Made by a program: the position numbers and the translations under genes. From Rhodothermia bacterium (GTDB lineage Bacteria; Bacteroidota; Rhodothermia; Rhodothermales; UBA2364), in assembly GCA_017303715.1 (NCBI GenBank), contig JAFLBZ010000047.1:1-32745 (forward strand): a stretch of 32,745 nucleotides of DNA, read 5' to 3'. Position 1 is the stretch's first letter. Every line of letters begins with the position of its first letter. This document shows positions 9,684 to 25,538 of the stretch, piece by piece. Below the pieces are notes generated by a model. The model made no database searches. It was not told the DNA's origin and saw only the letters and a list, made by a program, of their open reading frames with translations.

Positions 9684-10112
9684 GCGTTGATCCGATGAAT
9701 GGGTTTCTACAAAAGCAGGCCGCCCCCTGTTGATAGAAAATACGATGGAATCCACCCCGATTCATCTCGCTATGTGCAATTCTTGTTCCCGAACACCTTT
9801 TGGTGCTTTTAAAGGAACGATCTTGTGACGTCTGTCTCGCAAGGATGACCATACATTCTAAGCAAAAGCACTTGAAAATATTAAATTTATAAATAAAATT
9901 TTTACTATAGTCTTACGACCAAATCTTATGCTTAATACAACGGTAATGATGTTGGTTAGAATCATGAATATCTATTCAGACCTTATCTATAAAATTTAGA
10001 TTACATCAAAGAAATTATTTTTTTCCTCCTAAAACAACTTTTTTTCTTGACATGTAGCATTTCTTAAACTAAATTCCTTTTAAACACTTTTTTTCATCAA
10101 AACACGTCAAGT
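9684..10112. other. AT-rich intergenic region between divergent genes
   Basis: About 430 bases, strongly AT-rich compared with the genes on its left. It holds several T and A runs and the plus-strand promoter-like pair at 10047-10075. No protein-coding frame or structured RNA was recognised. It must also hold the promoter of the TPR gene on the other strand. Confidence 0.6.
10047..10075 (+). promoter_or_regulatory. Promoter-like -35/-10 pair ahead of the poly-C locus
   Basis: TTGACA at 10047-10052, a 17-base spacer, then TAAATT at 10070-10075. This would start transcription near 10082, about 30 bases before the ATG at 10113 and upstream of the poly-C tract, so the tract would be transcribed. 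The match is to the general sigma-70 consensus; Bacteroidota often use a different -7 motif (TAnnTTTG), so this is a candidate only. Confidence 0.5.
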
Positions 10113-10125
10113 ATGTATATTTTCT

Positions 10126-10139
10126 CCCCCCCCCCCCCC
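10126..10139 (+). repeat. Poly-C tract, 14 cytosines (candidate phase-variation switch)
   Basis: A run of 14 consecutive C, the longest homopolymer in the window. From the ATG at 10113 the sequence reads MYIFSPPPP and then stops at TAG 10176-10178 with 14 C. With 13 or 16 C the same ATG enters the frame of the lipoprotein gene through KYWLRKKPFLYFSQL, which supplies a basic n-region and hydrophobic core. With 15 C it stops at TAA just after the tract. This is the behaviour of a slipped-strand contingency switch. Confidence 0.8.
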
Positions 10140-10182
10140 GAAATATTGGCTAAGAAAGAAGCCTTTTCTGTATTTTAGCCAA

Positions 10183-11349
10183 TTGGCACTTTTTTGCATG
10201 ATCTTGTTTATGCTACCCGCTTGTGATTCGGCGTCGGTGACACCAGAAACGCATCAAGGAAAAGAAAAGCCACACCTTGCTTTACGGCAGTATTCTCCAA
10301 TTTCCTTTTATATTGCCCATCGCGAATTTGTGAACCTGAACCCGAATTTGAAAGAAGGATCGGAATTTGAAGAAAAGGTAACGGCTTATGTTGAAAAGCG
10401 CCTTTTTGAGATGGAGCCAGAGAAAAAAGGATATGTGGGGATGTTAAAAGCATTTGACGACCAACAAAAAGAAAGCATAGCGGCTTATAAGCTCCAGTCT
10501 GCACTCACTGGGCTTTCAAAAACCGAAAATGAAGATGTGCCAGAGCCAGACTTCCCCGGTTTTGTGACCACCATCCAACAAGAGTTGGCCTTCCTTAAAC
10601 CCGCCGAGGCTGAAAGAAATGACCTATTGGCTGTGGATGCCTTGGTGAAGCAGATGACCAATCCCAGCAAGACCTTCTCGGCAGATGCCTATCAAGGACA
10701 AATACGGGAACTTAGGAAAACGTTGGTCACCACTTGGTTGAATGACGAAGAGACGTGGCAAGCTGTTACAACGCCATGGGAGCAAGGATTTACTCCTGCA
10801 TATGCGATGAGTGACCAAGCATTAAAGAATATATTGATAGCTTTGGGAGTTGGGATAGCTTATGTCGGTACTGTTTATGCACGCGCAGCTTTAGCAAAAA
10901 AATATGCCTCCGATGAACAAATTCGGTTATTCCCTTATAGCATAAGTGGTGACAAAGGTGATGCCTTCCGACACGTTTATGCAAATGTTTTGCTAAGGAG
11001 ATGGGTACGCCTTATTAATGCTAATATTGTTTCATGGGCTTATGAACAGCTAAATCCAAATGAACCACGCCATCGGGCCATGGACTTTCATAACAACAAT
11101 GTGGGACATTATACGCGATATTATGAATTAAACGGCAATTGGTTATTAGACTTTTTTGACTGGCGGGAAATGAGCAAGCTAACCCATGCTTTTGTCCAAA
11201 ACAGCAATAATGGGCACTATATCGCGGCGTGGAGGGATAAAGATAAAAATACGCCAGGTCCTACAATTATTCACCCCAGCACGCACAATGATGCAAAAGC
11301 CATAACCAGCTCAATTTCTGATGGAAAATACATTTTTATTAACCCATAG
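10183..11349 (+). CDS. Lipoprotein with C-terminal DUF6973-like domain; candidate polymorphic effector
   Basis: Coordinates follow a TTG start at 10183 (388 residues); an ATG lies at 10198. The likelier start is ATG 10113, reached only if the poly-C tract is 13 or 16 long, because the basic signal-peptide residues are encoded between the tract and 10183, where there is no start codon. The lipobox is LPAC (Cys14 in the TTG numbering) followed by Asp. Residues 30-210 are helical and of unknown fold; 214-232 is a hydrophobic helix. Residues 256-310 carry GDKGDAFRH and HRAMDFHNNNVGHY, resembling DUF6973. Residues 326-350 are the anchor repeated twice downstream, and 351-388 a variable tail ending KYIFINP. 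The first of the array, it is followed 9 bases later by L1. A toxin role is inferred from architecture; no catalytic activity is assigned. Confidence 0.75.
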   Translation: MALFCMILFMLPACDSASVTPETHQGKEKPHLALRQYSPISFYIAHREFVNLNPNLKEGSEFEEKVTAYVEKRLFEMEPEKKGYVGMLKAFDDQQKESIAAYKLQSALTGLSKTENEDVPEPDFPGFVTTIQQELAFLKPAEAERNDLLAVDALVKQMTNPSKTFSADAYQGQIRELRKTLVTTWLNDEETWQAVTTPWEQGFTPAYAMSDQALKNILIALGVGIAYVGTVYARAALAKKYASDEQIRLFPYSISGDKGDAFRHVYANVLLRRWVRLINANIVSWAYEQLNPNEPRHRAMDFHNNNVGHYTRYYELNGNWLLDFFDWREMSKLTHAFVQNSNNGHYIAAWRDKDKNTPGPTIIHPSTHNDAKAITSSISDGKYIFINP

Positions 11350-11940
11350 GAGGGCAAGATGAAACCCGTATCCATTTTTGTATTCTTTCTGTTTCTGTTT
11401 GTGGGTGGATGTGATCTCTTAATAGAAGAAACGTATTACAAACTTGCTTCCCCAGAAACCATGGACATCGTAAAAGAGAAGGTTGTATTGCGTGGTATTG
11501 GCGAAGGTAACCCCGGAGATGGTGTTGTGGGGCTTCTTTTTGAGCGATTGCGATATACCGAGAAGGACTTACTCCTCGATATTAATCGTGCTGTTCTCGC
11601 AGACAATTCGCTTATTCCTAATCTTATCCCTGAAAAGGATTATAAAATTGGGGTGACTTATGAGATAACTGCCAAATATGACGAAACTGTTTGGTTGCAA
11701 GACTGCAAGGCCATTGTACCTGACCATCTTTTTTGTACTACGCGAAACCGGCATTGGGAATATTTCCCGATGGCCACATTTCTATTAACGGAAATCAAGG
11801 AGGTGCCGTGAGGTTTTAGGTGCAAACAAATGCACTCATCTCTTGCATCCCAAACGTACACCAACAACATCGGTGCAGACAGTGACCTTATAAACGAGAC
11901 AATCATGATCAAACAAGTCATTTTGCTGAGTATCTTCTTT
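11154..11940 (+). repeat. Long direct repeat, copy 1 (effector tail + L1 + start of L2)
   Basis: This 787-base block recurs at 13099-13885, offset 1945, almost unchanged. It begins at the TTTT before the GACTGG that opens the tail anchor. It runs through the tail, all of L1 and the L1-L2 spacer, and ends a few codons into the L2/L4 signal peptide. Most differences fall in the last ~120 bases of L1. Confidence 0.95.
11359..11811 (+). CDS. Lipoprotein L1, candidate immunity protein
   Basis: A 150-residue protein with a clear lipoprotein signal: MKPVSIFVFFLFLFVGGC, Cys18 followed by Asp. An unusually good ribosome site (AGGAGG) lies 5 bases before the ATG and overlaps the end of the effector gene. 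The body is predicted mainly beta. The segment VVLRGIG...GLLFERLRYTEKD...NRAVL is shared by all lipoproteins of the array, and a Cys pair (C-x9-C) lies near residues 115-125. It ends in EVP. It sits directly after the effector tail, where a cognate immunity gene is expected. That role is inferred; I know no named family. Confidence 0.8.
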   Translation: MKPVSIFVFFLFLFVGGCDLLIEETYYKLASPETMDIVKEKVVLRGIGEGNPGDGVVGLLFERLRYTEKDLLLDINRAVLADNSLIPNLIPEKDYKIGVTYEITAKYDETVWLQDCKAIVPDHLFCTTRNRHWEYFPMATFLLTEIKEVP

Positions 11941-12368
11941 TTAGGACTAAACGGTTGTGATGGATTCTGGGAAAACATCTACGTTGGGGATAAGGTCTAT
12001 AAAAATGATGTAAGGGAAAACAATATTGTTGAAGAGATTTTGGTCTTAAGGAACACGGTAGATACCCCTTCTTTTATCTCTTCTTATCTCTTTGAGCGGG
12101 TGAGTTATGCAGAAGAACACGAACCATATAAAAAGAAAGACAGTGCAAACCGGATTTTGTAGCTTCATTCTTTTTAATCCGACCGCAATTTGATCCTAAA
12201 TTGATGGTCAAAGACAAGAAGTACCGCGTTAGTGCTGTGTTTGACCGCGTCTTTCAAGTCAATAGCGATACCTTTTGCAAGATCGAAAACTATCGTCCCT
12301 GCTTGGAAAAGTACGACTTAATGTGGACCGGAAAGTTCCACATTGTCTCCATCGAGCCTGTACCGTAA
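11905..12368 (+). pseudogene. Lipoprotein L2, interrupted by a one-base frameshift
   Basis: The start is ATG 11905 (MIKQVILLSIFFLGLNGC, Cys18 then Asp). The frame runs through VEEILVLRN, SYLFERVSYAEE and DSANRIL to a stop at 12160-12162. The missing part continues in the next frame from 12159 (VASFFLIRPQFDPK... KYRVSAVFD... FCKIENYRPC... SIEPVP) to TAA 12366-12368. That continuation aligns with L3 and with the repaired L4. Adding one T to the TTTT run at 12155-12158 restores a full-length protein of about 154 residues. Either a real inactivation or a homopolymer read error. The 5' end matches L4 and the 3' end matches L3, so the gene is mosaic. Confidence 0.8.
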
Positions 12369-12480
12369 TGCTTGTGGGGTGTGGCCACAACCGCACCCCG
12401 TTTTGACTGGCGGGAAATGAGCAAGCTAACCCATGCTTTTGTCCAAAACAGCAATAATGGGCACTATATCGCGGCGTGGA
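12361..12480 (+). repeat. Direct repeat at lipoprotein-tail junction, copy B
   Basis: These 120 bases recur at 13059-13178 (offset 698). They comprise the last codons of the preceding lipoprotein, a terminator-like hairpin, and the 80-base tail anchor (12401-12480). The anchor also occurs at 11154-11233 in the full-length gene. Confidence 0.95.
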
Positions 12481-12578
12481 ATAACGACAATCGGAGTACC
12501 CATCCTATTTCACATAGTGATGCGCAAACTGGCACAGAAAACATAAGTCCTAACAAGTACATTTTTATTAACCCATAG
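12372..12578 (+). pseudogene. Orphan effector tail B (5'-truncated cassette)
   Basis: Open from just after the L2 stop, in the frame of restored L2. It can start only at a TTG (12372), with no ribosome site and a hairpin in between. Residues after FDW match the full-length effector exactly through the shared anchor. A different tail follows (about 25 residues, NNDNRSTHP... ending NKYIFINP). The 3' 25 bases (12558-12582), with stop and AGGAGG, are again shared with the full-length gene. It lacks the lipoprotein signal and the DUF6973-like core, so it is a displaced C-terminal cassette and unlikely to make a working protein by itself. Confidence 0.8.
12376..12404 (+). terminator. Terminator-like hairpin between L2 and tail B
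   Basis: GGGGTGTGG (12376-12384) pairs with CCGCACCCC (12391-12399) over nine positions, one of them G-T, around the loop CCACAA. G and TTTT follow. The T run is also the first bases of the tail anchor. It lies 8 bases after the L2 stop, as a terminator would. The T run is short, so termination may be partial. Confidence 0.55.
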
Positions 12579-12586
12579 GAGGTTGT

Positions 12587-13066
12587 ATGATTTACCATTT
12601 TATGGTTCGGCTATTCGGTTTTCTTGGACTGTTGTTTTTGTTTCAGGGTTGCGACACTATAGCCGATAGCGTTTTTTTTCGCACAAAAGTCTATGGAGAT
12701 ATACCTTTAACCAATGATATTGTCTTAGAGACGGTGGTGTTACTTAAGGATAAACCTCAAGATTATGATCCATCAGTGTCCGGGCTATTGTTCGAGCGCA
12801 TACGCTATAAGGAAGGAGATAAAAACGGGGATGTGAACCGCGTATTTTTGGGGGTTGGGAAAGATGTCACATCATTCTTCATGAGCGATCAACTCCAAAA
12901 AGGAAGATCATATCGTGTTAGTGGAAAGTATTTTGGAACTTCATGGTATGGATGTAATAGCCAACCGAGCCTAATCCCAAACTTCCCGCCTTGTATGGAC
13001 ACAACTGGTCTGATGGTGTTTAATATTGCAAGTTTCTATATCAAATCCATCGAACCGATACCGTAA
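12587..13066 (+). CDS. Lipoprotein L3, candidate immunity protein
   Basis: A 159-residue protein with signal MIYHFMVRLFGFLGLLFLFQGC, lipidated Cys22 followed by Asp. AGGAGG lies 4 bases before the ATG, as for L1. The array family motif reads IVLETVVLLKD...GLLFERIRYKEGDKNGDVNRVFLG, then KGRSYRVSGKYF and a Cys pair C-x12-C (GCNSQPSLIPNFPPC), and the protein ends SIEPIP. It follows tail B as L1 follows the full-length effector, which pairs each tail variant with a distinct lipoprotein. It is the only intact array member apart from L1 and L1'. Confidence 0.8.
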   Translation: MIYHFMVRLFGFLGLLFLFQGCDTIADSVFFRTKVYGDIPLTNDIVLETVVLLKDKPQDYDPSVSGLLFERIRYKEGDKNGDVNRVFLGVGKDVTSFFMSDQLQKGRSYRVSGKYFGTSWYGCNSQPSLIPNFPPCMDTTGLMVFNIASFYIKSIEPIP

Positions 13067-13069
13067 TGC

Positions 13070-13294
13070 TTGTGGGGTGTGGCCACAACCGCACCCCGTT
13101 TTGACTGGCGGGAAATGAGCAAGCTAACCCATGCTTTTGTCCAAAACAGCAATAATGGGCACTATATCGCGGCGTGGAGGGATAAAGATAAAAATACGCC
13201 AGGTCCTACAATTATTCACCCCAGCACGCACAATGATGCAAAAGCCATAACCAGCTCAATTTCTGATGGAAAATACATTTTTATTAACCCATAG
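13070..13294 (+). pseudogene. Orphan effector tail C (5'-truncated cassette, copy of effector 3' end)
   Basis: Open after the L3 stop in the same frame, with TTG as the only start and no ribosome site. After the junction segment it encodes the same anchor and the same tail (RDKDKNTPGP... GKYIFINP) as the full-length effector, so it is a partial duplicate rather than a new variant. Recombination with the head gene would be silent for the tail but could exchange the linked lipoprotein. L1' follows 9 bases later with the same AGGAGG. Confidence 0.8.
13074..13102 (+). terminator. Terminator-like hairpin between L3 and tail C
   Basis: Identical copy of the hairpin after L2: GGGGTGTGG (13074-13082), loop CCACAA, CCGCACCCC (13089-13097), then G and TTTT (13099-13102). 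It lies 7 bases after the L3 stop codon. Confidence 0.55.
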
Positions 13295-13885
13295 GAGGGC
13301 AAGATGAAACCCGTATCCATTTTTGTATTCTTTCTGTTTCTGTTTGTGGGTGGATGTGATCTCTTAATAGAAGAAACGTATTACAAACTTGCTTCCCCAG
13401 AAACCATGGACATCGTAAAAGAGAAGGTTGTATTGCGTGGTATTGGCGAAGGTAACCCCGGAGATGGTGTTGTGGGGCTTCTTTTTGAGCGATTGCGATA
13501 TACCGAGAAGGACTTACTCCTCGATATTAATCGTGCTGTTCTCGCAGACAATTCGCTTATTCCTAATCTTATCCCTGAAAAGGATTATAAAATTGGGGTG
13601 ACTTATGAGATAACTGCCAAATATGATGAAACTGTTTGGTTTCAAGACTGCAAGGTCATTGTACCTGACCATCTTTTTTGTACAACGAGGTATCGGCGTT
13701 GGGAATATTTCCCGATGGCCTCGTTCAACTTAACGGAAATCAAGGAGGTGCCGTGAGGCTTTAGGTGCAAACAAATGCACCCATCTCTTGCATCCCAAAC
13801 GTACACCAACAACATCGGTGCAGACAGTGACCTTATAAACGAGACAATCATGATCAAACAAGTCATTTTGCTGAGTATCTTCTTT
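13099..13885 (+). repeat. Long direct repeat, copy 2 (tail C + L1' + start of L4)
   Basis: Second copy of the 787-base block at 11154-11940, in the same orientation. Recombination between the copies would delete or amplify a 1945-base unit holding L2, tail B and L3. The boundaries are a TTTT at the left and the hydrophobic part of the L2/L4 signal peptide at the right. Confidence 0.95.
13304..13756 (+). CDS. Lipoprotein L1', near-identical copy of L1
   Basis: 150 residues, same signal (MKPVSIFVFFLFLFVGGC) and AGGAGG site as L1. The first ~111 residues are identical to L1. Six substitutions all fall in the last ~39 residues: L to F, A to V, N to Y, H to R, T to S and L to N, around the Cys pair (DCKVIVPDHLFC) and the terminal strands (RYRRWEYFPMASFNL). 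The clustering suggests either a mosaic donor or selection on the C-terminal face. Role as for L1. Confidence 0.8.
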   Translation: MKPVSIFVFFLFLFVGGCDLLIEETYYKLASPETMDIVKEKVVLRGIGEGNPGDGVVGLLFERLRYTEKDLLLDINRAVLADNSLIPNLIPEKDYKIGVTYEITAKYDETVWFQDCKVIVPDHLFCTTRYRRWEYFPMASFNLTEIKEVP

Positions 13886-14313
13886 GTGGGACTTTGTGGT
13901 TGCGATCTGTTCAAAGCGTTCCCTGATGATAGAGTGTTTCGTGGAAGTATATGGAAAAAGGACATTGTCAATGAGGAAGTCCTTCTTCGCGAAATCCCAA
14001 AGGTAGATTTGGATGGTTCACCTATCTTTCTTCTATCTCATCTATTTGAACGAAAAGGGTTTACTACTTTAAGTGAGAAAGATGAGGCCAATAGGATTCT
14101 TTATGCCAGCTTTGCAAGGATACCATGTGCTTATGATGACTTAGACCTCAAAGAAGGCAACAATTACAAAATAAGTGCTAAGTTCATTAAATTTACGAGT
14201 ACTGGTATTGTTGAGTATTGTAAAAAAATGCAGACTTTCAGCCTTGTAAAGAAGGCTATCGAAATATTGAGATAGGTTACTTCCAGCTAACGTCTCTCGA
14301 ATCTGTACCGTAA
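13850..14313 (+). pseudogene. Lipoprotein L4, frameshifted near the 3' end
   Basis: Start ATG 13850 (MIKQVILLSIFFVGLCGC, Cys18 then Asp). The unbroken frame ends at 14275 with KKAIEILR, unlike its relatives. Adding one A to the A7 run at 14222-14228 gives YCKKNADFQPC... then GYFQLTSLESVP and TAA at 14311-14313. This matches the ends of L2 (FCKIENYRPC...SIEPVP) and L1 (..YFPMATFLLTEIKEVP). The intact part has VNEEVLLRE, SHLFERKGF and DEANRILYASFARI. So L4 is a frameshifted member of the family, or has a homopolymer read error. If taken as it stands it is a 141-residue lipoprotein with an aberrant end. Confidence 0.75.
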
Positions 14314-14942: not shown

Positions 14943-16184
14943 TTAATGGGCCACTTCGATCAAATATTTGATGGTACTTTGTGCCTCGTTATAGACAATA
15001 AACTCGTTGTTCACCAAATCGGCTCCACCCTTTGCAAAAACAGAGTCGTACTGCCGCCGCAACAGCCCCCGCGACTTTAGCTTCTCGGCGTCTAATTTGT
15101 AGCACCAAGGCTTGTGTTGGCGGATGGTAAGTGCGTTTCCGGTATGCACTTCGTATAGGGCCAAGTAACCGCGATCCGCTCTACCGCCTGTCCAAAAAGC
15201 ACCTGATAAAGAGCTGTAATTTAGAGACTTCTGGAAATGATCGGCAAAGTACAACCCATAGCCAAACATCTTACCGGTAATAATGGCATTGGCAGGCCGA
15301 AGTACCAAGCCATTGCCCAAAATCGAGAGCCAATTTTCGTTACGGCTACCATGCCAGAGCAGCTCTGTTTTTTGGTTTGTGGCTGTATGTAAGTGGTTTT
15401 GGAAGCGCCGTCGGTGCTGGCGGTGGGTTACTTCAAACACCCGCACCATTTTTTTGGCGTGGTGTTGCATTTTCGCACGGATTTGGGCCATAACGGTTGC
15501 ATCTTCAACCACCCGAATTTCCAAACCCAATTTTTCACATACATTCACTGGCTTGGCATCGGATGTATTATGGTTCATTTGTACTTGGCCTACCATAACG
15601 TCTAAAGTGGCTTGTTCCATCGCCAGCATATTGCGAATGACGGCCTCGTCGGAGTCGGGTTGTACCAAGTGGTTCCGAACATTGGTCATGCGTCGTGGGA
15701 TTATAGCATAGAGGCGAATCAGTTGGCGGTTTAGGGCCTCCCTTGTTTGCCCCAATTCGTAGTCCGTTATCACTTCATTAATCAATCCTTGGGCTTCGGC
15801 AATTTGCGCAGCCGTCACTTCGTCTGACCCAACCAAATAATTGGCCAAAACGGAACTTCGGGCATAGCCCTGCAAACGGTTCATTAAGCCATCTATCCAA
15901 ACATTTCCGGTCGTGCAAAGATTGATTTCTTCTCTTTTATCTGCAAATAAATAGCTCACATCGGTATATCCTTTTCGGATTTTTTCGCGGTATTTTTTTT
16001 CCCAATGGGCCAAATCGTAGGTGGCGGTCGCGGCACGGCTCCCCACACGGCCATACTCCACCGAGAACGTCCCATCTGAAAGGGCATTCATGTTATAAAA
16101 TTTATTGTTATTGGCATCCGAGACCATGATGAGTCGTGCGCGGCGCTGTTGTGTGGGAGCGGTTTGCAAAGTAGCTGTGTTCAT
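14943..16184 (-). CDS. Bacterial poly(ADP-ribose) polymerase with WGR and PARP catalytic domains
   Basis: The start at 16184 (MNTATLQTAP) is preferred over ATG 16244, which adds 20 unrelated residues; length 413. Residues 20-85 form a WGR-type domain (KFYNMNALSDGTF, SVEYGRVGSR; the motif reads YGRVG). Residues ~100-200 are helical and resemble the PARP regulatory domain (LINEVITDYE, LIRLYAIIPRRM). Residues 240-413 are the catalytic domain, with the H-Y-E triad: His278 in LLWHGSR, Tyr312 in GYGLYFAD and Glu394 in NNEFIVYNEAQ. The triad predicts NAD-dependent poly- or oligo-ADP-ribosylation, with WGR sensing nucleic acid. Cytoplasmic, no signal peptide. PARPs of this build are uncommon in bacteria and are probably acquired. 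Confidence 0.9.
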   Translation of the reverse strand: MNTATLQTAPTQQRRARLIMVSDANNNKFYNMNALSDGTFSVEYGRVGSRAATATYDLAHWEKKYREKIRKGYTDVSYLFADKREEINLCTTGNVWIDGLMNRLQGYARSSVLANYLVGSDEVTAAQIAEAQGLINEVITDYELGQTREALNRQLIRLYAIIPRRMTNVRNHLVQPDSDEAVIRNMLAMEQATLDVMVGQVQMNHNTSDAKPVNVCEKLGLEIRVVEDATVMAQIRAKMQHHAKKMVRVFEVTHRQHRRRFQNHLHTATNQKTELLWHGSRNENWLSILGNGLVLRPANAIITGKMFGYGLYFADHFQKSLNYSSLSGAFWTGGRADRGYLALYEVHTGNALTIRQHKPWCYKLDAEKLKSRGLLRRQYDSVFAKGGADLVNNEFIVYNEAQSTIKYLIEVAH

Positions 16185-16233
16185 GAGTTCCAAGTATTTT
16201 TGCTGATGTACCCTGTATTGATTCCATAATACA

Positions 16234-16269
16234 AAAAGAGGCATGACAACATTGTGTCACACCTCTTTT
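16234..16269 (-). terminator. Intrinsic terminator of nirK-nirV-sco
   Basis: AAAAGAGG (16234-16241) pairs with CCTCTTTT (16262-16269). Inside, TGACA pairs with TGTCA around a six-base loop, with a CA/CA internal mismatch. On the minus strand the hairpin is followed by five T. It lies 30 bases after the SCO gene stop and ahead of the PARP start, so it separates the two units. Confidence 0.88.
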
Positions 16270-17764: not shown

Positions 17765-19186
17765 TTATTTGCGGAGGGCTTTCACTTGAACCGGGGTAAT
17801 TTCCCCACCTTTATTCCCCCAACTGTTCAGCACATACGTCAGGACATTTGCTGTTTGCTCGTCCGTCAACGCCATTTTGGGCATTATACTGTCATAGTTT
17901 TCTCCGTTCACGGTGATTTTGCCACTGAGTCCATTGACGATGGCTTGAATCCCGCGCTTGGGATCGGCATTTAAGAAGTCCGATTTGGCCAATGGTGGGA
18001 AAGCCCCTTTCAGTCCTTGCCCTTCGGCTTGGTGACACGCCTGACAGTTTGCCGTATAAAGCGTTTTGCCCATCGCAATGCGTTCTTGGAGGTTTTTCGC
18101 TACGGGAGCAGCGGGCTTATCGGCGGTAATGGTCTGGATGGTTCCGCCTTCGGGCTGATAAATTCGATCGTCTTGTTTCCCGGAATAGATCGTTTTGTCT
18201 TCTTGGCCCTCCACCTTCAACATCCCCAGCGCACCTTTATTAAAGGCCCTAAAGATGGAGTGATCCACCAGAATAAACGTACCCGGCACATCCACCTTAA
18301 ATTCCGCGATTGCAGATCCCCCGGCGGGTATCAAGGTGGTTTGGATGTTGTTATTTATGGCATCCCCTCCTTCTATATACACTTTGTCAAAGATTTCGCC
18401 AATCACATGGAAAGAAGAAACCATGTTTGGCCCACCATTTCCGATGTACAAGCGAACCGTTTCGCCCACATTGGCTTTTAGCGCCTTATCGCCCGTCAAA
18501 GCACCCACGGAGCCATTAAAGACCACATAATCGGGCTTTTCAGCAATGGCTTTTTCCATATCGAAAGGTTGTAGGCCTTGTTCCCCATAAGCGCCCTTGG
18601 TGTAAAAATCACCTTGCATCACATAATACTCCCGATCAACTTTGGGCAAACCACCTTTTGGCTCAACCAAAATAAGCCCATACATGCCGTTGGCTACGTG
18701 CATCCCGACGGGCGCCGTGGCGCAGTGATACACATATAACCCCGGATTGATAAGTTTGAACGAAAAGACGGATTCATGTCCAGGAGCGGTAAATGAAGCG
18801 GCAGCACCACCGCCTGGCCCTGTGACCGAGTGCAGGTCAATATTGTGCGGGAGTTTGCTCGTAGGGTTGTTCTTTAGATGGAACTCTACTTCATCACCCA
18901 CACGGGTACGGATGAACTTGCCCGGAACCACACCGCCAAACGTCCAAAACGTATATTCTACACCGTCGGCCATCCGTGCTGTTTTTTCGATAACCTCCAA
19001 GTCCACACGCCATTTAATGGGTGCCCGATCGCCAATATCGGCTTTTGGAACAAAGGGTGGATCGGTCAACTCCGCATTGACCATTTTGCCCGAAATCGGC
19101 TCGTCTGTCTTAGAGAAGCAACCTACGAAAGCCGTTCCCAACCCCAATACGCTCAAGCATAGCGCAAGTGTTCTTATGTATTTCAT
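17765..19186 (-). CDS. nirK: Copper nitrite reductase fused to a C-terminal cytochrome c
   Basis: Reduces nitrite to nitric oxide. The start at 19186 ([10 protein letters not shown]) gives a lipoprotein-like signal with Cys23 (TAFVGC); an ATG at 19258 would add 24 residues. The 473-residue protein has two cupredoxin domains. Type 1 copper ligands: His114, Cys155, His163, Met168. Type 2 ligands: His119, His154, His309. Catalytic Asp117 and His260 ([10 protein letters not shown]) are present. Residues ~365-473 form a class I cytochrome c with CQACH (381-385) and an IMPKM methionine. The fused heme probably feeds electrons straight to the type 1 copper. First gene of the nirK-nirV-sco operon. 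Confidence 0.96.
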
Positions 19187-19290
19187 ATCAAAACCGTTTA
19201 GGTGAATTTTTTTTGATGAGCCAGCCCAAGCCCTCATCTTTGCGTTCAATTTTTTCAAAACAAGTCATTCAAGATTAGACGATGTTTTGA

Positions 19291-19340
19291 ATACACGATT
19301 AAAAGATAAAAAAGTCTTTTATTATTATTTAATCGTGTAT
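19291..19340. promoter_or_regulatory. 13-base inverted repeat in the nirK / rrf2 divergent promoter region
   Basis: ATACACGATTAAA (19291-19303) and TTTAATCGTGTAT (19328-19340) are perfect inverted copies 24 bases apart. A nested TAAAAGA/TCTTTTA pair lies between them. The element sits 105 bases from the nirK start and 35 bases from the Rrf2 start, so it could control both. Candidate operator; it could also form an RNA hairpin, but it lacks the GC-rich stem of a terminator. Confidence 0.6.
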
Positions 19341-19374
19341 CCTCTTTACCCAGCGTAGTGAAAACACCTACAAC

Positions 19375-19824
19375 ATGTTTTCTAACTCTTGCATTTATGC
19401 CTTACGTGCCGTTTTGCATTTGGCACAACAACCCACACCACAGGAACGCTTGGGCGTTAAAAGCATGGCGGCGGTCTTGGAAATTCCAGAGCCTTATCTG
19501 GCCAAAGTCCTCCAAGTACTGGCACGGTTTGGGGTGATTTCCTCTGCAAAAGGCCCTGGAGGTGGTTTTTACCTGACCCCTGAGCAATTGGATGCCCCAA
19601 TTTTACGTGTTGTTGAGGTAACAGACGGCTTAGGAGAGTTGATGCGGTGCGTAATGGGCTTCACCTCTTGCTCGGCGGAGAACCCCTGCTTTCTACATGA
19701 TAGCTTTTCAACAGCCCGTCACAAGGTCATGCACCAACTCAAACACCATTCTATCCGCGAAAGTGCCCAAAACCAAGCGGCGCTTCTGGAGCGTCAGGGC
19801 TTATTAACCTTCAGTCCCGACTAA
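19375..19824 (+). CDS. Rrf2-family regulator with three Cys, likely Fe-S NO sensor (NsrR-like)
   Basis: A 149-residue regulator. An N-terminal winged helix (YALRAVLHLAQQ... LEIPEPYLAKVLQVLARFGVISSAKGPGGGFYL) is typical of Rrf2. Three cysteines (Cys92, Cys99, Cys105; C-x6-C-x5-C) are placed as the cluster ligands of NsrR and IscR. Divergent from nirK, with the inverted repeat in between, so nirK is the obvious target. Proteins of this class release DNA when NO attacks the cluster. Here that is inferred from cysteines and position. Confidence 0.9.
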   Translation: MFSNSCIYALRAVLHLAQQPTPQERLGVKSMAAVLEIPEPYLAKVLQVLARFGVISSAKGPGGGFYLTPEQLDAPILRVVEVTDGLGELMRCVMGFTSCSAENPCFLHDSFSTARHKVMHQLKHHSIRESAQNQAALLERQGLLTFSPD

Positions 19825-20311
19825 AACCGTGCGTTACGGGTTGATCAGGCCATTGTCAAGATGGGCTACAAATCATGCCTCTTCTACTACTGCTAAGACC
19901 ATTTAGACAACAGTTAGCACCAATTAGTCTGTTTCTGGGCTTATGGCAAGACCCCATTGGGTTGATATATTCCTTTGGCGAGGGTGTAGCTCGCTGAGCT
20001 TAGTGAACACCCCTTCAACTCACAATCCATTTCCCATTTTAAAAGATCGAGGTATCTTCAACCCATGTTCGCACCAAACATACCGGTTGAAGGAACGCAC
20101 CAAGAGCAGCCTTTACCGAAGTTTTACTTAGATTCTAAGTTCACAAAAATACAGCATGAAATTGAATTCATTCTTTTGGGCATATACAATACAAAAACAT
20201 CTTTTATTCTTTTTTCTTGAATACCGGACAAAAGAGTCCTTTACTTGAAATGATTTCATATTTTCCACACACTTGGCATCGGTTCTCGAAAATTCTCAAC
20301 CCCTCTTTACC
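19825..20311. other. 487-base noncoding region with several complementary segments
   Basis: No credible coding frame. TGGGTTGA (19958-19965) can pair with TCAACCCA (20058-20065), and the overlapping CTTCAACC (20056-20063) can instead pair with GGTTGAAG (20085-20092). Between them, AGGGTGT (19981-19987) with ACACCCCT, enclosing AGCTC-GCT-GAGCT, forms a further stem. The right part (20130-20270) is AT-rich and is the likely promoter of rrf2-norCBQD. Could be a structured leader or decayed sequence. Confidence 0.45.
20246..20258. promoter_or_regulatory. Palindrome upstream of rrf2-norCBQD
   Basis: TGAAATGATTTCA is a perfect palindrome apart from its central base, 54 bases before the second Rrf2 gene, within the AT-rich promoter region. 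It is a candidate operator for one of the two Rrf2 proteins. Palindromes this short can arise by chance in AT-rich DNA. Confidence 0.35.
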
Positions 20312-20737
20312 ATGTTTGCAAAAGGAACCACCTATGCGATTAAAGCCATGTGTTTTCTGGCTTTACAAACAAAGAAAGAGGAATGGGTAAGCCTTGCCAC
20401 CATCTCATCGGGGATTCAATCTCCCATTGCCTTCACGGCAAAAGTGATGCAACGATTGCGCAAGGCCGCATTGATAATTTCGGCAAATGGGCCTAAAGGT
20501 GGTTTCCGATTACCGCAAAACCAGCGGATCAGCCTAAAAGAAATTGTTGTAGCGATTGAGGGAAGTGGTCTATTCGAGCGATGTGGTTTGGGCTTGGAGA
20601 CCTGCTCTGCCGATTCCCCCTGCCCCATTCATCCATACTACGAGGGCTTAAAAGCGGACTTGAACCGGATTTTGGAAGAAGCCTATTTGGATGAATTGAC
20701 ATGGGATTTGGTGAGCAAAAGAATTGGTCTTGGCTAA
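20312..20737 (+). CDS. Second Rrf2-family Fe-S regulator, heading the nor operon
   Basis: The start at 20312 (MFAKGTTYAIKAMCFLA) matches the Rrf2 N-terminus; a TTG at 20273 would add 13 residues. 141 residues. Winged helix with TAKVMQRLRKAALIISANGPKGGFRL, and cysteines Cys91, Cys98, Cys104 (C-x6-C-x5-C), the same spacing as in the regulator at 19375. It lies 31 bases before a possible norC start on the same strand, so it is probably cotranscribed and controls its own operon. NO sensing is inferred. Confidence 0.9.
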   Translation: MFAKGTTYAIKAMCFLALQTKKEEWVSLATISSGIQSPIAFTAKVMQRLRKAALIISANGPKGGFRLPQNQRISLKEIVVAIEGSGLFERCGLGLETCSADSPCPIHPYYEGLKADLNRILEEAYLDELTWDLVSKRIGLG

Positions 20738-20810
20738 TCAACACCTTAAAAAACTATCGAAATTGCCAATGGGCAATTCAAAATATGATCACCTTAAACC
20801 TTTAGACGCT

Positions 20811-21503
20811 ATGCTTTCAAAATCTCAGGCAAGGCTTTTTTTTATTGTTGGTACTATTTTCTTCTCTGGTATTTTCCTATGGCTAACGGTAGATACCATC
20901 CAACAAGTACCCAACCAAACAAAAGCCGCCAACATCACACCAGCCGTTGACCGTGGCAAGCAAATTTGGGAGGCCAATAACTGCATGGGTTGTCACACCA
21001 TCTTCGGAGAAGGGGCTTATTATGCACCCGAATTGACCAAAGTTGTGGAAAGACGGGGCGAAGTTTGGCTTAAAACCTTTTTGAAAGACCCCGAGGCCAT
21101 GTATCCAGGGGAGCGCAAGATGACGAATTACCATTTCTCGGATAGCCAAATTAATGACGTGATTGCTTTTCTAAAGTGGGCTGGCGAGGTGGACCTGAAC
21201 GGCTTTCCGGCAAAACCGACGTTAACCGCCAATACCGTCTCCGCACCTGCCGCCAATACGGACTTATTAAAAGGCGCCCCCGCCACGTTTTCGCAGTTGT
21301 GTACAGCATGTCACAGTGTTGGAGGCAAAGGTGGAAATGTGGGGCCGGCGTTAGACGGCATTGCCACACGAATGTCTCCAGAGGAAATGACGAAGCGGAT
21401 AAAAGACCCTATGTCGGTTAAAGCAGATTCCAAGATGCCAAAATTGGGATTGCCGGACGGAGATATTACGCAAATTGTTGCCTTCCTTCAAACTTTAAAA
21501 TAA
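20811..21503 (+). CDS. norC: Nitric oxide reductase cytochrome c subunit with an extra heme domain
   Basis: Takes electrons from periplasmic donors to NorB. The start at 20811 (MLSKSQARLFF) resembles the short N-terminus of known NorC; ATG 20769 would add 14 residues. A single anchor helix spans residues 9-26. A typical NorC domain follows, with CMGCH (58-62), EGAYYAPELT and Met104 (GERKMTNYHFS). Unlike ordinary NorC, which ends soon after, residues ~150-230 form a second class I cytochrome c with CTACH (164-168) and Met209 (DSKMPKLGL). norB follows 19 bases later. Confidence 0.93.
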   Translation: MLSKSQARLFFIVGTIFFSGIFLWLTVDTIQQVPNQTKAANITPAVDRGKQIWEANNCMGCHTIFGEGAYYAPELTKVVERRGEVWLKTFLKDPEAMYPGERKMTNYHFSDSQINDVIAFLKWAGEVDLNGFPAKPTLTANTVSAPAANTDLLKGAPATFSQLCTACHSVGGKGGNVGPALDGIATRMSPEEMTKRIKDPMSVKADSKMPKLGLPDGDITQIVAFLQTLK

Positions 21504-21522
21504 CCCTCATCAGGTCTGAACT

Positions 21523-22878
21523 ATGAAATACGCATCTCAAAAAGTAGCTTTTTGGTTTTTCGCAACCTGCATGTTACTGCTAACGCTCCAGTTGATTTAT
21601 GGATTCATCATGGGGTTTGCCCATATGGGGTATGATGTTTTACATGATTATATCCCCTTTAATGCAGCCCGTGCCGTTCATACCAATTTATTGGTGGTTT
21701 GGTTATTGACGGGTTTTATGGGAGCCGCCCACTACATCATACCGGACGAAGTTCAAAGCGAGTTGTACTCCGTTAAGTTGGCCTACATTCAATTGGTCTC
21801 CTTGGTTGTGGTAGGTGTTATTGCGGTCATTGGGTTTCACCTGAATTGGTGGGAAGGCCGGAAATTCCTTGAAATCCCACGACCGTTAGACTATTTGGTG
21901 GTCGTAAACGTCCTTACGTTTTTGTTCAACATTGGTATGACGGTTTTCAAAGCCAACCGCGCCTCAACCACTTCTATTGTACTATATACAGGCTTGGTGG
22001 CGGCGGCCTTACTCTATTTACCGGGCATGATTTACTTTGAAAACCAGACCATGGATTCTTATTTCCGTTGGTGGGTGGTACATTTGTGGGTAGAGGGTGT
22101 TTGGGAATTGATTATGGGGGGGATTTTGGCTTATTTGCTCATCAAGTTGACGGGTGTGGATCGCGAGGTCATCGAAAAATGGTTGTATGTCATCGTTGGG
22201 CTTACCTTTTTATCGGGTATTTTGGGGACAGGACACCATTACTACTACATTGGTGCACCGAAGTATTGGCTTTGGGTAGGCGGCATCTTCTCGGCCTTAG
22301 AGCCATTAGCCTTCTTGGGAATGGCGCTTTTTGCCATCAATATGTACCGCCGGAGTGGTCGTGAACATCCGAATAAATTAGCCCTTATGTGGACGATCGG
22401 CTGCGCAATCATGTCTTTTGTGGGTGCTGGATTTCTTGGCTTTGCCCACACCTTGCCACAAGTAAACCTCTACACGCATGGTACTTTGGTAACGGCTATG
22501 CACGGTCATTTGGCCTTTTGGGGGGCATATGCCATGATTGTTCTGGCCATCATCAATTATTCCATGCCGCTTATGACTGGACGCAAACGCTATTCGAGTA
22601 TGAATGGTAATCTCGCCTTTTGGTTATCGAATATCGGCATGTTAGGCATGACAGGGGCTTTTGCTGTGGCCGGAATTGCCCAGGTGTACTTGGAAAGAAA
22701 AACAGGTATGGACTTTTTGCAGGTTCAGCGCGAGATCGAACCTCATTTCTTGGGTTTGGTATTGGCGGCAACTTTGTTTACCTCCGGTATTGCTCTCTAC
22801 ATCTACGAATTTATACAATTTGGAAGCCCATCCGATGAAGCACTTGGCGTGCCAGAAGATACTGCTATTGCAGTCTAA
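21523..22878 (+). CDS. norB: Nitric oxide reductase catalytic subunit
   Basis: Reduces 2 NO to N2O at a heme b3/non-heme iron centre. 451 residues, twelve predicted membrane helices, normal for cytochrome-c-dependent NorB without the quinol-type extension. Heme and iron ligands are all in place: His53 (AVHTN), His187 and Glu191 (HLWVEGVWE), His238-His239 (GTGHHYYY), and His327 and His329 (MHGH). Glu260 in SALEPLAF matches the conserved second glutamate. Partner of the adjacent NorC. A hairpin separates it from norQ. Confidence 0.97.
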   Translation: MKYASQKVAFWFFATCMLLLTLQLIYGFIMGFAHMGYDVLHDYIPFNAARAVHTNLLVVWLLTGFMGAAHYIIPDEVQSELYSVKLAYIQLVSLVVVGVIAVIGFHLNWWEGRKFLEIPRPLDYLVVVNVLTFLFNIGMTVFKANRASTTSIVLYTGLVAAALLYLPGMIYFENQTMDSYFRWWVVHLWVEGVWELIMGGILAYLLIKLTGVDREVIEKWLYVIVGLTFLSGILGTGHHYYYIGAPKYWLWVGGIFSALEPLAFLGMALFAINMYRRSGREHPNKLALMWTIGCAIMSFVGAGFLGFAHTLPQVNLYTHGTLVTAMHGHLAFWGAYAMIVLAIINYSMPLMTGRKRYSSMNGNLAFWLSNIGMLGMTGAFAVAGIAQVYLERKTGMDFLQVQREIEPHFLGLVLAATLFTSGIALYIYEFIQFGSPSDEALGVPEDTAIAV

Positions 22879-22888
22879 TTTACCACAC

Positions 22889-22920
22889 AAAAGGGTTTCG
22901 TCGACAAACGGAACCCTTTT
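22889..22920 (+). terminator. Hairpin between norB and norQ (attenuating terminator)
   Basis: AAAAGGGTTTCGT (22889-22901) pairs with ACGGAACCCTTTT (22908-22920) over 13 positions with one T-G pair, around the loop CGACAA. It starts 10 bases after the norB stop and ends 17 bases before norQ. The T run is part of the stem, so termination is likely partial. Its place would make norCB transcripts more abundant than norQD. Confidence 0.7.
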
Positions 22921-22937
22921 ACTCCTTCGTCTAAATT

Positions 22938-23735
22938 ATGGAAATGTTAGTCTCACCCGCAGTTGACCACGTTTTTTACAAACCCATTGGCCGTGAGATC
23001 GAGGTTTTTGAACATTGCTTTCGGAACCGGCTTCCCCTTTTGTTAAAAGGCCCAACAGGATCGGGCAAGTCGCGCTTTGTAGAATATATGGCCCAAAAGT
23101 TAGACCTACCGTGTCTTACGGTGATGTGTCATGAGGAAACCTCGACGGTGGACTTGCTGGGGCGCTACATCATCAAAGGCCACGATACCGAATGGATAGA
23201 CGGGCCACTAACGCAGGCCGTTAGGAGCGGCGGCATCATCTATTTGGATGAAATTGCCGAAGCCCGCCCCGATGTAATGGTGGCCATTCACTCGCTTACC
23301 GACCATCGGAGGATGTTGTATTTGGATCGGCATCACGAAAATCTAAAGGCTCCCGACCATTTTATGTTGGTGGCATCGTTTAATCCGGGCTATCAGAAGG
23401 GGTATAAAGAGCTAAAACCCTCCACGCGGCAGCGCTTTGTTACCCTGTCTTTTCAATATCCCGCCAAAGAGTTAGAAACCGAAATCATTGCCACAGAGAC
23501 AGGCGTAGAAAAAGCCGTGGCGCAAAAACTGGTAGCCATTGCTGCAAAAATCCGAAATAGCGTAGAATTGGGCCTTACCGAAACCGTTTCTACACGCTTA
23601 TTGGTGGACGCGGGCATATTGATTGCAAGTGGTTTACCGCCCAGATTGGCTTGCACCGTTTCGATTGCCGAAACCCTCACCGATGACGAGGATGTGAAAG
23701 CATCCCTAAAAGACCTTATCGCATTGATTTTTTAG
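22938..23735 (+). CDS. norQ: MoxR-type AAA+ ATPase, NO reductase activation protein
   Basis: A 265-residue AAA+ protein of the CbbQ/NorQ group needed to assemble active NorCB, probably by inserting the non-heme iron. Walker A is GPTGSGKS (38-45). Walker B is IIYLDEI (100-106). The sensor region is LVASFNPG, and the arginine-finger region lies around STRQRFV. It acts in the cytoplasm with the VWA protein NorD encoded 9 bases downstream. Confidence 0.94.
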   Translation: MEMLVSPAVDHVFYKPIGREIEVFEHCFRNRLPLLLKGPTGSGKSRFVEYMAQKLDLPCLTVMCHEETSTVDLLGRYIIKGHDTEWIDGPLTQAVRSGGIIYLDEIAEARPDVMVAIHSLTDHRRMLYLDRHHENLKAPDHFMLVASFNPGYQKGYKELKPSTRQRFVTLSFQYPAKELETEIIATETGVEKAVAQKLVAIAAKIRNSVELGLTETVSTRLLVDAGILIASGLPPRLACTVSIAETLTDDEDVKASLKDLIALIF

Positions 23736-23744
23736 GCGACACTT

Positions 23745-25538
23745 ATGGAATGGGACCAGTTTATCTTCAAGAAAATCCACCAGTTGGTCACGTTTGTACG
23801 TTCCGAGAAGCCCGATCCCGAACGTATGGCGCGTGCTGTTACGCTCGAAGAAATGGCGCCTCGTTTAACCTCCTTGGCGCGGCTCTTGTGTGGAAAGGCT
23901 ATCACGTTGCACCCCTCCGAGGATGTTGGCGGCTTCAAGGGGACTTCCTTTTTCCTGCCCCGTCAGTACGATCATGGCCATTCACGAGAAGCCAACGAAG
24001 CCTTCTACTTGTTTCGCACCTTGTTCCTTTATGGACAGTTTATCCTTAGACAGGCTTGGACTGACCATAACAACCACACCCACGAAGAGTCGGTAAGCAA
24101 GGCACGAGAGCAAGCCCAAGCCGTTCTCCAATTCCTGAGCAAAGAATTTGAGACCTTTCCAGACGTATATCGCTCGGTCTTGCATCAGGAAACAGCCTTC
24201 CAACAGAGCAGAAAAAAAACCGGAATCGCAGAATCACCAACCGATGTCTCATTGGTCTATGGCAAATGGCTGTACCTAAATCCTGACGAACTTGAGGCTT
24301 TAGAGGCACTAAAAGGCGTTGTTAACCGCAATACCGTCGCCGAGGACAAAGACAAAAATGAATTTACCGAACACCAAGCACCAGCTAAAGAAGAAACAGA
24401 GGTGCTTAAGGTTGATACCCGCGAACAAGAAAACTATACCCTAACCCATAACTTCGAGAAAATAGAGACCTTAGACGAGTTTTCGGGGCGTTGGCGCAAC
24501 TTTGACGGAAGTGACGACATGGAGGAACACAGCGAAGCCTTGCGCGACCTTGATCTAAGGCACTTGGTGCGGGTAGATAACCCCGTTCATTCTATTTATA
24601 AATCGGAATTTGTGAACTCGCTTGGACTAATCGAAATCCATTCCCCAGAGCAACAGGCGTTCTATCTACAATATGATGAATGGGATCGGAATAAAAAACA
24701 GTACAAAGCCGGTTTTTGCAAGGTTTATCCAGCATTTATTAAAGAAAAAAAACCACACTATACGCAAAAAATCATCCGTGAAAACCAAGGCCATATCCGC
24801 CAAATGCTCAAACATGCCGAGCGGTTCTTGACGGATTATCACGTAAAAAAAAGGTTAATATGGGGCGACGAACCAGACTTAGACGCCACCGTAGAAGCCT
24901 TTGTGGATCGGTGGTGCGGCATCGCACCCAACGAAAATCTCTATGTCGCGAAGCGGAAACGAACCAAAGAAATCGCCATTTTGGTGCTGACCGATGTGAG
25001 CCTGAGTACAGACGGATACAGCAACAACAAACGGATTCTAGATACCGAAAAAGAAGCATTGGTGATGGTTTCGGAAGTCTGGCGACAATTAGGCGTGCGT
25101 TTTCAGTTAGATACATTCTCCAGCCGTACACACAACCACTGCTATTATCATACCGCAAAAGCATTCCATCAGTCATGGGAAGACAGCCGAGACCATATCG
25201 GAGCCATCGAAAGCAGTGGATACACCCGCATTGGCCCCGCCATTCGACATGCCACCTATCTACTGGAACAAGTGCGGGCAGATACCAAATGGCTCTTGCT
25301 CTTGACCGACGGAAAACCCAACGATTACGACACCTATGAGGGACAGTATGGGATCTTCGACACACAAAAAGCCATCAACGAAGCACGAGAAAAACAAATG
25401 CACGCCTCGGCAATCGCCATAGACGAAACCGCCAAGTTTTATCTCCCACAAATCTTTGGGCGGGGTGGTTATCAAATTCTCCGACATGCCAACCAATTGC
25501 CCGATGCTCTCCTAAACTGCTATTTGAACATTCTGTAA
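23745..25538 (+). CDS. norD: VWA-domain NO reductase activation protein
   Basis: A 597-residue cytoplasmic partner of NorQ. The N-terminal ~400 residues are helical and divergent. The C-terminal von Willebrand A domain starts near residue 410 with the metal-site motif DVSLS (Asp417-Ser421). It continues with GYTRIGPAIRHATYLL (the Thr-Gly part of the site) and LLLLTDGKPNDYDTYEGQYG. The length is normal for NorD. Short spacing after norQ and the unique NorQ-NorD pairing make the assignment firm. Confidence 0.93.
   Translation: MEWDQFIFKKIHQLVTFVRSEKPDPERMARAVTLEEMAPRLTSLARLLCGKAITLHPSEDVGGFKGTSFFLPRQYDHGHSREANEAFYLFRTLFLYGQFILRQAWTDHNNHTHEESVSKAREQAQAVLQFLSKEFETFPDVYRSVLHQETAFQQSRKKTGIAESPTDVSLVYGKWLYLNPDELEALEALKGVVNRNTVAEDKDKNEFTEHQAPAKEETEVLKVDTREQENYTLTHNFEKIETLDEFSGRWRNFDGSDDMEEHSEALRDLDLRHLVRVDNPVHSIYKSEFVNSLGLIEIHSPEQQAFYLQYDEWDRNKKQYKAGFCKVYPAFIKEKKPHYTQKIIRENQGHIRQMLKHAERFLTDYHVKKRLIWGDEPDLDATVEAFVDRWCGIAPNENLYVAKRKRTKEIAILVLTDVSLSTDGYSNNKRILDTEKEALVMVSEVWRQLGVRFQLDTFSSRTHNHCYYHTAKAFHQSWEDSRDHIGAIESSGYTRIGPAIRHATYLLEQVRADTKWLLLLTDGKPNDYDTYEGQYGIFDTQKAINEAREKQMHASAIAIDETAKFYLPQIFGRGGYQILRHANQLPDALLNCYLNIL

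Follow-up and report, generated by a model that had tools for sequence, protein, structure and literature searches.

A putative poly-C contingency switch at the start of an effector-like lipoprotein gene with a downstream cassette array in a Rhodothermia bacterium

Overview of the locus

The window analysed in this study, a stretch of 32,745 nucleotides of contig JAFLBZ010000047.1 from a Rhodothermia bacterium, to which all positions refer, carries a gene for an effector-like lipoprotein and, between an ATG at 10113 and the frame of this gene, a homopolymer of 14 C. With a probability that we put at about 0.82, ATG 10113 is the true start codon and the C tract is a slipped-strand contingency switch of the lipoprotein, which is accompanied by a cassette array and putative immunity genes. 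Slipped-strand phase variation with the sequenced state OFF, already proposed in a first-pass annotation of the same DNA, is well supported, as judged from sequence comparison, by the conserved design of the locus, contig ends in a related genome, a second gene of the same build and tracts at gene starts in another family of the order. The tract, its frames, the conserved design, purifying selection, the cassette copies and the domain context can be read from the sequences, and actual switching, export, toxicity and immunity are inferred.

In the proposed mechanism, replication slippage in the C run would bring the lipoprotein into and out of frame with ATG 10113, so that both ON and OFF cells arise. 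At tract lengths of 3n + 1, translation would pass from a short oligo-proline segment into a signal peptide that has KYWLRKKP as its charged n-region and LPAC as a lipobox-like motif, yielding an exported DUF6973 lipoprotein; at other lengths, including the sequenced 14 C, translation would end early, here after 21 codons. The product would most likely be an interbacterial effector, with a C-terminal tip matched to a small lipoprotein (immunity) encoded just 3', and the expressed gene could take up copies of orphan cassettes of tip and lipoprotein at a seam of 80 bp. Only ON cells would wear the effector, whereas each small lipoprotein gene has a start of its own and may be translated in ON and OFF cells alike.

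The genome of the window was compared with those of a second species of the genus (G002) and a third, Bacteroidetes bacterium UBA2364 (UBA2364, here G001), which is placed at NCBI in the unclassified Bacteroidota Order II. The gene was present in all three genomes, and a protein search of 114 genomes of the order found it in these three and in none elsewhere. Relatives of the gene were located at two loci in a search of genome contigs, both from UBA2364 (L048, L049), and none of 75 candidate stretches on viral contigs encoded a relative. The stretches L132 and L165 were left out of the analysis.

Start codon, tract and reading frames

All features of the locus described here lie on the forward (+) strand, and signal peptides, lipobox cysteines and lipoproteins were assigned by eye. 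The order in the DNA is ATG 10113, TATATTTTCT, 14 C (10126–10139) and GAAATATTGG. The start and first codons (ATG TAT ATT TTC T, 10113–10125) precede the tract, which begins 13 nucleotides after the A of the ATG (12 in G002). As sequenced, reading from ATG 10113 gives 21 codons and then TAG at 10176–10178 (10113–10178), just as first annotated. The gene was called as an open reading frame (ORF) of 388 codons, from TTG 10183 to 11349, out of frame with ATG 10113; past the tract its frame occupies 10141–11349 and, from ORF, Pfam and substitution data, encodes a lipoprotein with a C-terminal DUF6973. The residues that follow the tract in this frame are KYWLRKKPFLYFSQLALFCMILFMLPAC-D, and the signal-peptide codons (KYWLRKKPFLYFSQLALFCMILFMLPA) extend over 10141–10221, with the Cys at 10222.

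A change in tract length alters the frame of the gene relative to ATG 10113 by simple arithmetic on the sequence. The lengths that join the two frames are 3n + 1, in agreement with the earlier claim for 13 and 16 C; the further claim that SPPPP is added at both lengths needs correction, as 16 C yields one Pro more. Followed upstream from 10183, the gene frame crosses the tract and meets no stop codon as far as 10084; between 10084 and 10182 it contains no ATG, GTG or TTG, so that without a frame change there is no usual start before the signal peptide. The reported lack of a start between the tract and the basic residues holds for these three codons, but CTG (10168), ATA and ATC, which are rarer possible starts in the same frame, do occur.

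A promoter-like pair, TTGACA-N17-TAAATT (10047–10075), lies 37 nucleotides before ATG 10113; the pair had been recognized previously, with the distance given as 38. Its counterparts are TTGACA-N17-TAATTT, 38 nucleotides before the ATG in G002, TTGACA-N17-TAGTTT, 35 nucleotides before the ATG in G001 (C47), and TTGCAA-N17-TATATT in a distant G001 copy of the gene (L008). Regulation via promoter spacing was considered and set aside, since the tract is 3' of the start codon.

The distant copy L008 (C57) is 55% identical and has no C tract. One of its ATG codons gives MFKSRLMYAFGLMV...TGCD (MFKSRLMYAFG...), with a charged n-region matching the codons upstream of 10183, which argues that the window gene also starts upstream of 10183. 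Around its start (L008 1473–1500) there are three tandem copies of an 8-base unit (ATGTTCAA), which supply ATG codons in every reading frame and may form a repeat switch of a different kind.

It was also considered that translation starts downstream, at TTG 10183 or ATG 10198, or re-initiates there after a short ORF with an oligo-proline leader, the tract tuning the level of expression. The short ORF does stop at 10178 with a TTG at 10183, G002 too has an in-frame ATG after its tract, and no genome of the genus was seen in frame. With such a start, however, the signal peptide (MILFMLPAC or MALFCMILFMLPAC) would lack charge and be very short, and basic residues are kept just upstream in the window genome, G002 and L008; moreover, the next in-frame ATG in G002 is about 33 bases past the stop of the short ORF, and the close spacing of stop and start is not kept. 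Homologues that begin at 10183 or 10198 without upstream similarity, named beforehand as a refutation, were not found, and G002 keeps the ATG, the poly-C, the basic n-region and the lipobox. A downstream start is thus considered highly improbable.

Chance expectation

In the assembly of the window genome (4.35 Mb, 62 contigs, C runs counted on both strands), the 14-C tract is the sole run of at least 11 C. With this tract removed, 125 overlapping matches of 7 C, five of 9 C and none of 11 C were counted, and the resulting decay of 0.2 per base leads to an expectation of about 0.0016 places with 14 C in the whole assembly. Coincidence becomes even less probable given the position of the tract, four codons past the start of a gene; the gene thus has, in its 5' part, a repeat tract that is unlikely by chance.

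Conservation and selection in the genus

The orthologue in G002 (65% identity) reads ATG CAC AAA TCT, 8 C and then CSLGRKRSLSEYGRMILVCMILFILPACD in the gene frame, with GRKR...LPAC at the same place. Here too the ATG and the gene are in different frames, and reading from the ATG meets a stop immediately. In G001, the contig with the upstream neighbour gene ends in ATGTACACACTTC (...CACATGTACACACTTC), and the downstream contig begins with CCCCCCTGTAG (CCCCCCTGTAGTTTAGG). By synteny with G002, these contig ends would be the two sides of the tract, and the break there suggests that assembly stopped as expected of a long or length-mixed homopolymer. The tract is therefore represented among the relatives by 14 C in the window genome, 8 C in G002 and contig ends in G001, and is missing from L008.

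An error of sequencing or assembly, by which the true tract would be in frame and fixed, the homopolymer miscounted and no switch present, has in its favour that long C runs are error-prone and that a single consensus is available for the window genome. It conflicts with the 8-C tract of G002, a length read more reliably and also out of frame, as well as with the recurrence of the design in another gene and another family (see below), and it leaves a long C run just after a start codon unexplained; we deem it very unlikely.

Although both assemblies are out of frame, the ratio of nonsynonymous to synonymous substitution rates (dN/dS) between the window genome and G002 was 0.16 overall, with values of 0.11 and 0.10 for the N-terminal mature part and the DUF6973 part, respectively, and dS was near saturation (proportion of synonymous differences, pS, 0.57–0.73). 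This purifying selection on an out-of-frame gene implies that the gene must sometimes be read, since one that was always off would not be kept in this way. The frames after the tract are open for 402 codons in the window genome and 401 in G002, with no stop. Decay into a pseudogene, with the frameshift as a dead allele and the cassettes as debris, would fit the second frame break in UBA2364 described below and the frameshifted lipoprotein remnant in the array (11907–12162), and is contradicted by the dN/dS of about 0.1, the stop-free frames and the conserved promoter; its probability is judged to be very small.

Related ORFs (MELELITL...) with a C/G run near the C-terminus were found in G001 and G002 (L024 1501–1509, 9 bases; L043 1501–1511, 11 bases) and are a candidate for a second variable gene of the genus.

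The same design in another gene and similar tracts in another family of the order

A second gene of G002, a lipoprotein ORF of about 340 residues, has ATGTGTAATTTTCT, 12 C and then TFLFLFLILLVAGCD in the gene frame; its tract starts after the ATG and 11 nucleotides, and it is also out of frame with the ATG. By BLASTP its product is not significantly similar to the window protein (E 0.85), and the gene has no homologue in the other two genomes of the genus.

Runs of at least 12 C were present in 53 of the 114 genomes of the order. The survey of tract positions started from 40 regions among the tracts listed, from G004, G005 and G007–G014, all of one other family; the N-rich L115 and L125 were dropped and two tracts of the genus added (n = 40). 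On one strand, 31 of 40 tracts of at least 12 C/G bordered an open frame at its 5' edge. The same held for 18% of 7589 positions drawn at random from these loci and for four of 37 control short C/G runs (6–8 bases). The first of these figures is to some extent circular, since an ORF is split by every frameshift. A signal-like hydrophobic segment followed such 5'-edge tracts within 45 codons in 13 of 40 cases, against 1.5% of random positions and 0/37 short runs. Among these 13 signal-bearing genes, an upstream ATG open through the tract was in frame in five, out of frame in six and absent in two, a mixture as expected of switching loci.

The same counts bear on recoding at the C run, either by slippage during transcription or by programmed frameshifting of the ribosome, through which a constant fraction of full-length product would be made and variation would be phenotypic noise and not heritable. 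Such recoding would agree with the frame junction inside a long homopolymer and with selection that preserves the codons of a gene found out of frame in both assemblies. Recoding sites usually keep their length, while the tract differs between the two measurable orthologues (14 vs. 8), and the five in-frame and six out-of-frame genes among the 13 are as for heritable length variation. Recoding is accordingly held to be unlikely, and slipped-strand switching is preferred.

Pfam scans were made on 20 of the 29 candidate tract-gene proteins. Six of them are DNA methyltransferase or restriction proteins (L087, L089, L104, L108, L113, L119), three have fn3 or immunoglobulin (Ig)-like domains (L098, L103, L107), and a LapA domain gave a weak match in two (L088 and, below the cut-off, L093); an oxygenase (L106) and a FixG-C Ig-like fold (L110) were also matched, and seven had no Pfam match. 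Methyltransferases and surface proteins are classic phase-variable classes (PMC11868660).

Methyltransferase genes with runs of 12–16 C/G bases in their 5' part, L113 859–2502 (-), L119 2525–4258 (+) and L089 2507–4999 (+), are candidate phasevarions in a Bacteroidota order. Three tracts of G014 (L117, L123 and L124, of 12, 12 and 15 C) are all preceded by an identical 50-base sequence, as if a repeated element had brought a start codon and poly-C to several genes.

Several points weigh against a contingency switch at ATG 10113. The length of 14 C rests on one assembly consensus and may be miscounted; slippage should be slow in the G002 tract, which is no longer than 8 C, and no in-frame state was found in any of the three genomes of the genus examined. 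In G002 the gene frame as sequenced is also open upstream past the tract to a TTG, which is the first half of the -35 box. The UBA2364 copy (L007/L054 120–135) has its frame broken again, by a 2-base difference from G002 in an A-rich stretch early in the mature part. The near-saturated dS affects the ratio between the window genome and G002, and the G002–G001 ratio, based on very few changes, was 0.42 overall and 0.56 in the N part. The circularity of the 5'-edge statistic, together with the fact that several of the 40 tracts are homologous, means that the survey p-values are not literal, and 38 of the 40 tracts come from one other family. Finally, LPAC is atypical as a lipobox, and the structure model of the mature protein, from a three-row alignment, was too poor to use (predicted local distance difference test, pLDDT, 46).

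The encoded protein and DUF6973

The match to DUF6973 (PF22322) lies at 10891–11109, residues 251–323 of the 402 amino acids read from 10141 (Pfam E 7.4e-13, above the cut-off). No match was obtained for the focal protein in an NCBIfam scan or in a PDB sequence search with the protein alignment, and PADLOC gave none for three proteins of the window.

In the phylum, 28 of 394 genomes had a DUF6973 match, 27 of them above the cut-off, and among 14 control genomes only Corynebacterium glutamicum did. The context of the domain was examined in 15 of 30 loci, with an ORF recovered in 11 (L133, L134, L137 and L148 were left out). In L152 a single protein has an RHS core (TIGR03696) and then DUF6973, and five of the 11 ORFs are lipoprotein-like with DUF6973 at the end (L145, L149, L151, L155, L157). 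A small ORF with a hydrophobic N-terminus adjoins at -11 to +8 bases in eight of 11 (L145, L149, L150, L151, L152, L155, L156, L157), six of these eight small ORFs having a lipobox-like Cys. The small stand-alone DUF6973 proteins (L135, L144, L147) have no ORF that close on the 3' side; in L147 there is an unrelated ORF at +102. Two pairs of lipoprotein and small lipoprotein genes are in tandem in G083, of the same order. The proposal that the product is an effector is thus supported indirectly, through the RHS protein and the lipoproteins with an adjoining small exported ORF, and an exported partner suggests that the effector would act in the cell envelope.

Across 14 aligned DUF6973 proteins, the invariant residues are A, R and H of DAxRH, an E, the M, D, N, N and G of MDxxNNxxG, and one further G. 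DUF6973 has no described function, and no paper naming it was located in the open-licence PMC literature.

Cassette array downstream of the gene

Downstream of the conserved body, an 80-bp seam at 11154–11233 is identical at 12401–12480 and 13099–13178, and it is followed by the variable C-terminal tip of the expressed gene (11234–11349). Next come a small lipoprotein gene, the putative immunity partner (11359–11811), identified from its ORF and family matches, and the frameshifted remnant of another small lipoprotein gene (11907–12162), with a stop at 12160–12162 beyond which similarity continues in another frame, by eye. By sequence comparison, two orphan tip cassettes follow: one without signal peptide (12399–12578), with its small lipoprotein partner gene at 12587–13066 (ORF, family matches), and one whose protein is 98% identical to the expressed tip (13097–13294), with a small lipoprotein gene at 13304–13756 that aligns as a near-copy of 11359–11811. 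A further small lipoprotein gene of the same family, again from ORF and family matches, is at 13850–14275.

The orphan cassettes are copies of the last 60–65 codons of the gene, each then followed by a small lipoprotein gene, and the expressed tip with its partner (11154–11961) is 97.0% identical over 808 bp to 13099–13906. The arrangement recurs with different tips in G002 and G001, and an orphan module of G001 is 99% identical over 215 bp to the end of the expressed gene there. The seven in-frame small lipoproteins of the window genome and G002 were linked by phmmer into one diverged family, some matches being weak (E-values refer to a set of nine sequences, of which two in a wrong frame, the 11907 remnant and the G001 C57 gene, are disregarded). 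A variable C-terminal tip on a conserved body, together with orphan tip and partner modules that share a seam with the expressed gene, is as in polymorphic toxin systems with orphan cassettes, and DUF6973 also occurs in another carrier of polymorphic toxins, the RHS protein L152.

Between G001 and G002, DNA identity was 88% over 2293 bp with the upstream neighbour gene and 74% in the last 184 bp before the tract. Past the tract, windows of 60 bases gave 97–100% over the first 1020 bases and then 92, 75 and 65% at the tip, with 95% in one window beyond it. A near-identical body between diverged flanks points to a probable recent exchange of the effector body, bounded close to the tract and at the seam.

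A broader reading, which we advance tentatively and at somewhat less than even odds, is that long C/G tracts form a contingency-locus repertoire in the order, coupled here to a cassette-shuffled effector: the tract would decide whether the weapon is worn, and the cassettes which tip and immunity it has. The tract may also serve as a recombination edge, because the effector body is near-identical from tract to tip seam between two species with both flanks diverged.

Other features of the window

The region 17765–25538 holds what we take, by eye, to be a denitrification cluster, with a nitrite reductase-like multicopper protein with cytochrome c, two Rrf2-type regulators, and NorC/NorB-like and NorQ/NorD-like genes. 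A bacterial PARP catalytic domain with a WGR domain is encoded at 14943–16244 (-), and two adjoining ORFs at the contig end, 31704–32665 (-), resemble pieces of a transposase by eye.

Significance and comparison with known systems

Slipped-strand switching is textbook knowledge for host-adapted pathogens. No report was located in the open-licence PMC literature on Rhodothermales together with phase variation or on UBA2364, and, by title and the start of the abstract, none of the papers found there on homopolymer slipped-strand phase variation reports a switch of this kind in this group of bacteria; in the available text of PMC11868660, phase variation in Bacteroides is by inversion where a mechanism is named. 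If the switch is confirmed, simple sequence repeat (SSR) contingency genes would extend to a little-studied Bacteroidota lineage, and each cell would gamble on the use of an interbacterial effector, with the immunity genes retaining separate starts. An envelope-acting effector role is also proposed for DUF6973, a family without described function whose invariant residues are present in the window protein.

The window gene resembles the SSR contingency genes of Neisseria, Campylobacter and Helicobacter and the general use of 5' homopolymers as switches (PMC2831843, PMC11868660): a long tract falls within its first codons, its product is predicted to be exported and its expression would depend on the frame. 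The tract-bearing genes of the order likewise include surface-protein and DNA-methyltransferase genes. The present case differs in its uncultured-type Bacteroidota lineage and in the association of the tract with an effector-like lipoprotein and a cassette array.

In the layout of the array, the locus is comparable to the meningococcal tpsA/tpsC (PMC3848433) and mafB/mafI (PMC4287609) islands, in which a full-length gene and an immunity gene 3' of it precede cassettes that are truncated at the 5' side, differ at the 3' side and are each accompanied by a small ORF. Recombination of cassettes into the expressed gene is described for those islands and proposed here. Unlike them, the window gene has no match to a two-partner secretion (TPS) domain and encodes a lipoprotein whose tip is short, with about 40 residues past the seam; its partners are putative exported lipoproteins, and it has a proposed poly-C switch at the start. 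Two-partner secretion of the TpsA/CdiA type was rejected, with DUF6973 as the only Pfam match, no NCBIfam match and no TpsB-like ORF next door by eye.

In protein build there is a resemblance to the SitA lipoprotein toxins of myxobacteria (PMC5562445, PMC8546572), which have a lipoprotein signal peptide (in the window a putative one, with a signal-like segment and a Cys by eye and the atypical LPAC), a C-terminal effector part and an adjoining immunity gene, putative in the window. It differs from SitA in having DUF6973 in place of nuclease tips and in its proposed phase variation, a term that PMC5562445 does not contain.
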